A DNA stretch of 27,405 nucleotides from a virus: positions 1-27,405 of IMG/VR virus record IMGVR_UViG_3300020056_000133. One strand, given 5' to 3'. How positions within the stretch are numbered: the stretch's first letter is position 1; every line of letters begins with the position of its first letter. The translations under genes were made by a program, and so were the position numbers. The notes under the pieces were generated by a model. It ran no database searches and was not told the origin of the DNA. It saw nothing but the letters and a program-made list of their open reading frames with translations. Below, piece after piece: positions 11,184-11,672 of this stretch.

Positions 11184-11212
11184 TCGCAACGATGAGTTAT
11201 GTAGTGGTATAC
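11167..11212 (+). other. Long hairpin overlapping the end of the small ORF
   Basis: Positions 11167-11183 pair with 11197-11212: 16 base pairs (one G-U) with a single bulged T at 11179 and a 13-nt loop. The stop codon at 11181-11183 is in the 5' arm. No T-run follows, so it is more likely a 3'-end stability or processing element than an intrinsic terminator. Confidence 0.7.
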
Positions 11213-11258
11213 TAGCTCGTTCAGATGGGGCTAGCCCATCTTGTCTAAAGATATTTTC

Positions 11259-11304
11259 ATTTCGCTTACGCTCATTCAATATCTGTATCCAATTTCGCTA
11301 CGCT
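11259..11304. repeat. Imperfect direct repeat ATTTCGC(T)TACGCT
   Basis: Two copies, 11259-11272 and 11292-11304, identical except for one extra T in the first. Their outer ends are about 45 nt apart and they lie at the AT-rich edge of the non-coding island. The first copy lies in the loop of the 11249-11284 hairpin. Possible binding site; function unknown. Confidence 0.6.
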
Positions 11305-11381
11305 TTCTTTCCTTTTATACATTTATAAACCTGTTAATAACTGTACTTGGAGAAGATATTCCTGTAGATTAAGTCGTCAGG

Positions 11382-11403
11382 TGGAACCTGTCCGCAGGTT
11401 CCA
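11382..11403. other. 9-bp hairpin with TCCG tetraloop
   Basis: TGGAACCTG (11382-11390) and CAGGTTCCA (11395-11403) pair perfectly around TCCG, which fits the UNCG tetraloop pattern when read on the plus strand. This is a hint that the plus strand may be the functional RNA, although the closing pair is G-C and not the usual C-G. Confidence 0.7.
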
Positions 11404-11513
11404 TTTACTCGAAGCCAGGAATCTTCCTGTGAGTATCGCCGCCGAGGCAATAGAAGCAGGTGTTTTCTCTCAGTCCCCGGGGCTTTGGCCTCTCCCCTAC
11501 CTGCACCAACATC

Positions 11514-11547
11514 ACATAGCAGCATATTTCCCAACATTCTGCTATGT
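11514..11547. other. 9-bp stem with 16-nt loop
   Basis: ACATAGCAG (11514-11522) pairs perfectly with CTGCTATGT (11539-11547). It has no terminator T-run on either strand and is part of the non-coding island. Confidence 0.65.
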
Positions 11548-11640
11548 TACCCCCAACCTCGTTCCGTTGTTAGGGTTTTTGGGACTAGAGTGTGCTCACG
11601 TCAGATCCGAACTAGATGTATAAACCTAGCTCTCAAGACG

Positions 11641-11658
11641 GATCGAGGTTCCTCGATC
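11641..11658 (-). terminator. Hairpin just after the nuclease gene stop
   Basis: GATCGAGG and CCTCGATC form a perfect palindromic stem (7-8 bp) about 14 nt past the stop of the minus-strand nuclease gene. The position suits a transcript end, but no T-run follows, so it may be a stability hairpin and not a terminator. A competing pairing GATCCG/CGGATC (11604-11609 with 11639-11644) overlaps it. Confidence 0.35.
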
Positions 11659-11672
11659 AAACATTAGAGCAA

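Follow-up and report, generated by a model that had tools for sequence, protein, structure and literature searches.

The gene-free island at positions 11184-11672 of the window (the whole stretch of 27,405 nt analysed here, a 27.4-kb virus record from a T4-like phage) holds a structured RNA of about 320 nt, which lies on the minus strand and is a member of a new family outside Rfam, its function being open. The family itself, a conserved, structured and noncoding RNA whose expression is inferred, is hardly in doubt. The best explanation of the whole is a stand-alone noncoding minus-strand RNA of a new family with two sites gripping one trans partner, and we put its probability at roughly 0.6. 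The two-site trans mechanism taken by itself remains tentative.

A structured RNA behind a RusA-like gene

The genes of the window include those of a prohead protease, a portal (5494-7254), a gp51-like baseplate hub, a late sigma factor, SbcC/SbcD-like gp46/gp47 and baseplate wedge proteins. The island is flanked by a plus-strand ORF ending at 11183 and a minus-strand RusA-like ORF ending at 11673. An earlier note, made from the sequence alone, had claimed that 11184-11672 is free of genes; these coordinates fit the flanking ORFs and no plausible gene lies between them.

11004-11183, plus strand: 59-aa ORF on the other flank of the island, presumably gp26-like
11354-11672, minus strand: structured RNA, about 320 nt long, with its 5' end close to 11672 and a conserved 3' end around 11354; covariance model R1 matches 11355-11596 (minus) with E 7.7e-26
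11673-12188, minus strand: RusA-like / PDDEXK_15 nuclease gene preceding the RNA (Pfam PF24608, E 3.2e-24; phrog_244, E 2.2e-18)

The 59-aa ORF has no family match in Pfam or PHROG; similar 73-aa ORFs adjoin gp51 in relatives, as judged by eye. The GC content is 45.0% over the whole island, versus 37.7% for the window, and 56.7% in 11381-11500, within the range of 53-60% counted previously and reached by only 7 of 2729 sampled 120-nt segments of the whole window. At least seven stem-loops had been reported, several with 7-9 perfect pairs, and we found 16 inverted-repeat pairs, including 9-nt perfect arms (11382-11390/11395-11403) around the 4-nt TCCG loop that the earlier note had also recorded. 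Imperfect arms of 15-20 nt are present at 11514-11547 and 11629-11670. Folding of the island beat 100/100 dinucleotide shuffles on both strands, with z scores of -3.58 (plus) and -4.05 (minus). Promoter-like sites in the window itself were no better than the chance number. As to its extent, the island was correctly delimited, but the conserved RNA proper covers only 11354-11672, other hairpins occupying 11184-11353. The RNA boundaries, with the 5' end directly behind the RusA stop codon, were inferred from conservation and not mapped.

On the minus strand, G-U pairs outnumber A-C mismatches (118 versus 32), and folding is better on this strand for hairpin P8 (45/53), for hairpin P7 (71/80 relatives) and for the whole element (78/104). 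Since both the counts and the folding energies favour the minus strand, the RNA runs from 11672 to 11354. They overturned a plus-strand reading, which had first been suggested by terminator-like hairpins in a few relatives. A small hairpin near 11431-11456 (CCRAG..UUGG on the plus strand) reads better on the plus strand; it breaks in L022 and L029 and was neither scored nor used. No conserved reading frame was found, at most 11 of 95 unique cores being open in any frame, and the lengths of these cores (141-163 nt) follow no 3-nt rhythm.

Covarying helices and a pseudoknotted core

The structural elements are given below in the sense of the RNA.

11593-11671, minus strand: 5' domain, three-way junction of type B (11667-11671/11593-11597; hairpin 11652-11658/11641-11647; 11637-11640/11599-11602; inner hairpin 11624-11632/11609-11617)
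11472-11586, minus strand: long-range helix P6, 11581-11586 (AGUCCC) with 11472-11477 (GGGACU), crossing P4
11551-11575, minus strand: hairpin P8 with conserved loop GGAACGA; 6/7 pairs changed on both sides
11514-11547, minus strand: hairpin P7, an inverted repeat of variable length and sequence
11487-11507, minus strand: helix P9, 11505-11507 with 11487-11489, crossing P5 and P4; three pairs, 3/3 changed on both sides, 98.6% paired, outside the model
11456-11504, minus strand: helix P4, 11499-11504 (GCAGGU) with 11456-11461 (ACCUGC); 99.3% paired, U-A to C-G in 11/93
11479-11497, minus strand: helix P5, GGGG 11494-11497 with CCCC 11479-11482; 98.7% paired, 2/4 pairs changed on both sides
11379-11406, minus strand: hairpin P2 with a weak outer stem, 11397-11402 (GGAACC) with 11383-11388 (GGUUCC); inner pairs in 93/93, A-U to G-U changes on the minus strand
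11248-11284, minus strand: hairpin downstream of the RNA, with a GAGCGUAAGCGAAA loop and a counterpart about once per locus near the RNA

Of the alignments, A1 comprises 58 of 59 references plus L113 and L143, A2 comprises 28 of 30 sequences, and A4 is made of 93 chosen sources, not all. Over the 34 pairs in A2, 92.3% are standard and 18 changed on both sides, giving a covariation score of 0.340 as compared with 0.132 ± 0.009 after shuffling and at most 0.071 with slid partners. Over the 34 pairs in A4, 94.4% are kept and 20 changed on both sides (score 0.298, shuffled 0.119 ± 0.005, slid at most 0.083). Since the shuffle control, unlike the slid one, retains no phylogeny, these scores should not be read as P values. 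P7 was excluded from the pair counts, and one P2 row taken from wrong columns was discarded. Because the 93-sequence alignment favours pairs that are part of the model, a clean test comes from P6 and P9, which had been excluded from it: together they are 94.9% paired with 8/8 double changes, and score 0.703 versus 0.211 ± 0.014 for shuffled and at most 0.154 for slid partners. For P6 alone, all five pairs changed on both sides, with 92.7% of cells paired (93 sequences). The row of the window in A4 is off by one column, and its P6 pair was taken directly from the sequence. When all column pairs of 98 cores were scanned without bias, the top matches included P6 and P8 pairs and the columns of the two repeats described below. 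The earlier note had guessed at a phage-encoded structured RNA, naming covariation and a conserved protein frame beforehand as tests; the strong covariation and the lack of such a frame both uphold this guess. As P6 crosses P4, and P9 crosses P5 and P4, the core is a compact pseudoknot holding the crossing helices P4/P6 and P5/P9.

The region 5' of the core takes at least two forms, namely the three-way junction of the window and relatives versus a longer form beside most GIY-YIG genes, and the 5' domains are interchangeable. The type B kind of junction recurs in 11/17 folded sequences (window, L029, L022, L067, L069, L083, L101, L162, L164, L115 and L168) with differing stem bases, as seen by eye and without a covariation score.

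P7 ranges from about 13 to about 70 nt. In many loci, e.g. L067, L119 and L125, it often consists of GC-rich palindromic blocks (e.g. CCGCTTCGCGG) that resemble small inserted palindromes. Past the core, at a distance of about 70-90 nt in relatives, sits a hairpin with a GAGCGNNAGCGA loop and a co-changing stem, which corresponds to 11248-11284 of the window. Its motif gives 115 matches in 1.71 Mb of loci, mainly one per locus. This hairpin may be a further 3' domain of the RNA or a termination signal.

Two direct repeats that change together

The 3' part of the core carries two copies of one heptamer.

11424-11430, minus strand: direct repeat R2, ACAGGAA in the RNA sense, identical to R1; the copies co-vary in relatives
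11359-11365, minus strand: direct repeat R1, ACAGGAA in the RNA sense, on the same basis as R2

These 7-nt repeats lie about 57 nt apart, the spacing varying from 49 to 67 nt among loci, and the 3' end of the core reads, in the RNA sense, CUC-R2-G, then P2, then UCU-R1. The repeat is ACAUGAA in most loci and ACAGGAA in the window; with eight further versions, R1 has ten in total. From the 130 loci with the core pattern, 12 that were cut or lacked an anchor were excluded, leaving 118 in the anchored analysis, and R1 or R2 could not be read in 7 of these. In 110 of the 111 remaining loci R1 equals R2. The same identity was found in 15/15 loci of another set (4 of them counted already, two read by eye) and in 10/10 loci retrieved through TerL and not through the RNA (two by eye; including two contigs seen before and one pair with equal RNAs). 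It held in all siphovirus-like loci checked, these 10 included. The R1/R2 columns stand out in the all-pairs scan as identical, not complementary.

No partner of R1/R2 was found inside the RNA, although one in a variable place with G-U pairs could escape. A 6-mer complement of the repeat occurs in 15/37 loci with minority versions, versus 15/333 for swapped versions; as a sign of an internal partner this excess was discarded, since it proved to stem from palindromes, from records nearly identical to one another and from scattered positions. These data suggest that R1 and R2 share one partner in trans.

Distribution in two phage lineages

Among loci fetched via the gp51 and RusA proteins, L029 shares 80% identity with the island along 328 nt; for L007, L022 and L014 the match is confined to parts of 11359-11514. 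The aligned-core pattern is present in at least 119 IMG/VR stretches. A second pattern gave 22 stretches, 19 of them new and 3 already known, and covariance model R1, built from 28 sequences, recovered 22/22. A search of 65 sources for the RNA omitted L001, L002, L003, L018 and L019, which contain the window's own or a near-identical sequence. In the TerL family of siphovirus-like phages the model found the RNA in 10/38 loci, with no match in the other 28 (some incomplete). Two of these ten lie in contigs already met with the second pattern (L301 is the contig of L255, L316 that of L258), which leaves 8 further contigs, and the RNAs of L277 and L280 are equal. The RNA, 320-430 nt in size across relatives and pseudoknotted, is thus carried by well over a hundred contigs from two unrelated lineages of aquatic phages, T4-like and siphovirus-like. 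It is single-copy in 14/14 contigs tested with the pattern.

In the RNA sense and within three ORFs, the preceding gene of the 130 core-pattern loci is GIY-YIG-like in 88 and RusA-like in 10, with 27 contig ends and 5 others. Loci fetched through RusA lack the RNA in 44 of 48 cases, so RusA is not a fixed partner. The next ORF on the other side lies on the strand of the RNA in 86/122 loci and on the opposite strand in 36/122, and because this strand varies the RNA is no constant leader for a single gene. Seven of the 14 gp51 loci L004-L017 contain the RNA, and the other 7, judged from their lengths, end too early to hold it. In T4-like phages the RNA is retained at one place. Beyond tail-fibre-like proteins and one methyltransferase-like protein, we found no protein common to the RNA contigs of both lineages, so the RNA seems to travel alone. 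The ORFs upstream in L007, L014 and L022 were considered as guide-RNA nucleases and rejected, having no Pfam or PHROG match.

A short N-terminal tag of one kind (e.g. MKVFDILTE, MLVSQILSE, MKVYQITEA) was seen on otherwise unrelated proteins beside the RNA (L007:6015-7196, L022:5922-6746 and protein clusters 4, 6, 11, 14, 16, 19, 21, 22 and 24 of RNA neighbours). We take it to resemble the capsid-targeting / prohead-protease signal of T4 internal proteins. The slot beside the RNA, empty in the window, may hold fast-changing injected proteins.

A DNA search of phage records gave no match, a single 22-nt match with E 0.4 being taken as chance, and the RNA was not found in Melnitz, Atu_ph07, PA5oct or Phosso. 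By TerL, the isolates closest to the siphovirus-like lineage are the Pelagibacter phages HTVC111P and kin; the model did not find the RNA in HTVC111P, 202P, 112P, 026P or record DSL-LC06. In the latter (L265), the packaging genes follow a 756-nt gap without annotated gene (572-1328), in which the model recognises no relative of the RNA but which may hide another element. The exact pattern has 0 matches in Genome_contigs. A home in a bacterial chromosome was set aside after L115 had first looked chromosomal, as its contig reads by eye as phage-like with host-like genes. No match came from 5 bacterial genomes that contain the neighbouring aldolase-like gene, nor from 150 genomes belonging to a single order; as only some of the candidates were scored, this is weak evidence. 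The 46.9-kb contig of L115 (G014) carries the RNA together with many host-like genes, named by eye: ribonucleotide reductase, ClpX/ClpS/ClpP-like, small heat-shock, IMP dehydrogenase-like, curli-like and cytochrome c.

A proposed mechanism and its alternatives

The proposal builds on the conserved fold, the strand, the lack of coding, the coupled repeats, the presence in two lineages and the absence of any linked protein partner found. In the absence of expression data, we infer that synthesis of the RNA accompanies or directly follows that of the RusA-like transcript and that the RNA works in trans. Its folded core would present two identical 7-nt sites, R1 and R2, which might hold a single shared partner, most probably through pairing twice with the same target nucleic acid. 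If this target drifts between phages, both copies would drift together. The effect could be silencing, sponging or counter-defence. No trans target was found: complements of the repeat near start codons, in either sense, showed no clear enrichment in seven contigs. From the co-varying repeats one would expect a shared partner that changes in step with them, in its sequence or its specificity, which makes the function testable.

A more speculative extension, which we would not expect to hold in full, would make the RNA a mobile tool of aquatic phages that consists of one RNA gene, pseudoknotted, with two copies of one recognition word and no protein of its own. The word would be rewritten in both copies when target or host changes, and the RNA would pass between unrelated families as a unit. 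As a guide or decoy with two hands, it would serve early takeover or counter-defence. In T4-like phages the RNA often adjoins genes resembling injected internal proteins. To our knowledge, no RNA of this two-handed kind has been described.

A protein binding two sites would equally give the R1/R2 pattern. The RNA could thus be a scaffold in which the repeats are two sites for one RNA-binding protein, of phage or host, with drifting specificity, the RNA sequestering or assembling this protein. The repeat flanks are alike (CUC/UCU before, mostly G after) and in L317/L334 they change together too, as seen by eye, which would favour this reading; yet no candidate protein is common to the contigs of both lineages, and ten repeat versions would demand repeated re-specialisation. 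We therefore hold such a scaffold possible but unlikely.

Another possibility is a cis element at the end of the gp55-gp47-gp46-RusA transcript, which might stabilise the 3' end, mark a processing site or cleave itself as a ribozyme. The RNA does begin right behind the stop codon of the preceding gene and in the same direction, U-rich hairpins were seen by eye downstream of it in many relatives, and double-pseudoknot cores are known in ribozymes. However, it is kept behind different genes (RusA, GIY-YIG and others), matches no ribozyme family in Rfam, and its co-varying repeats would be left unexplained, so that we find this role improbable.

A DNA-packaging RNA that acts with terminase or portal like the phi29 packaging RNA appears quite improbable as well. 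Its appeal lies in gene order: in siphovirus-like contigs (TerS phrog_309, TerL phrog_2) the RNA precedes terS-terL on their strand, at about 0.3-4.2 kb from terS, and in the window the portal and prohead protease genes lie no more than about 9 kb away. The RNA and terS are nevertheless separated by small genes that differ in kind, most loci of the same TerL family (28/38, some of them cut short) and the closest isolates have no RNA match, the neighbours in T4-like loci are not terminase genes, and Rfam gives no match.

Finally, the idea that the hairpins are convergent terminators or arose by chance in the gap between genes, which is close to the earlier note's guess of a compact end region of two convergent transcripts, can be dismissed in spite of the convergent neighbours in the window, being refuted by strong covariation, pseudoknotted helices, deep conservation amid differing flanks, an RNA on the same strand as the preceding gene, and the lack of any intrinsic terminator found in 11100-12500.

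The trans-acting RNA with two sites remains our preferred reading. Phages retain little that is useless, so the RNA must pay, and the intergenic gaps of viral metagenomes still hide whole RNA classes.

Comparison with known systems

Rfam 15 gave 0 matches over the whole window at the gathering cut-off. With all 4227 families, 11000-11900 yielded only three chance matches up to E 10, and the relatives L115, L092, L143 and L174 none on the RNA up to E 1; the earlier statement that the island matches no known RNA class withstood this search. Similarly, no description of such an RNA was found in the literature as far as the openings of abstracts and part of one preprint go. We regard the RNA as a new family on the basis of this lack of Rfam match and of published description, and of its resemblance to GOLLD/ROOL without membership. 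It equals ribozymes and riboswitches in elaboration but has no match in Rfam.

The phi29 pRNA, whose family is present in Rfam, is likewise a phage RNA and is about half the size of the present one, which precedes terminase genes in one lineage. The Rfam search found no match to this family, and the present RNA, unlike pRNA, is absent from many relatives with the same terminase. TnpB/IscB guide RNAs are also structured and adjoin a nuclease gene, but here the neighbours are RusA-like PDDEXK_15 or GIY-YIG-like, not TnpB/IscB, and there is no Rfam match.

GOLLD and ROOL are families encoded in part by phages, present in Rfam and longer than the present RNA. Large, highly structured and without a known job, they occur in bacteria and metagenomes (PMC12286853). 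Our RNA is also large, ornate, of unknown job and found in phages, but their covariance models do not match it in the Rfam search, the window has no tRNA gene, and the RNA has two co-varying direct repeats. VIPR vrRNAs are about 100 nt long, contain 9-16 tandem YNNGG repeats and go together with a Vipr protein (PMC13142463). They resemble our RNA in being phage RNAs that combine repeats with a structured portion able to form a pseudoknot; they differ in that the present RNA has two identical heptamers and no YNNGG tract.

Set against what defines each class, the RNA is not tmRNA/tRNA-like (ARAGORN, 0 tRNA or tmRNA genes in the window), and does not have the open, length-conserved frame of a protein-coding gene. 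It agrees with a packaging RNA by gene order only, and this in siphovirus-like contigs, not in T4-like ones. In contrast, what defines a new structured RNA family, helices that covary beyond shuffles and slid partners, is met.
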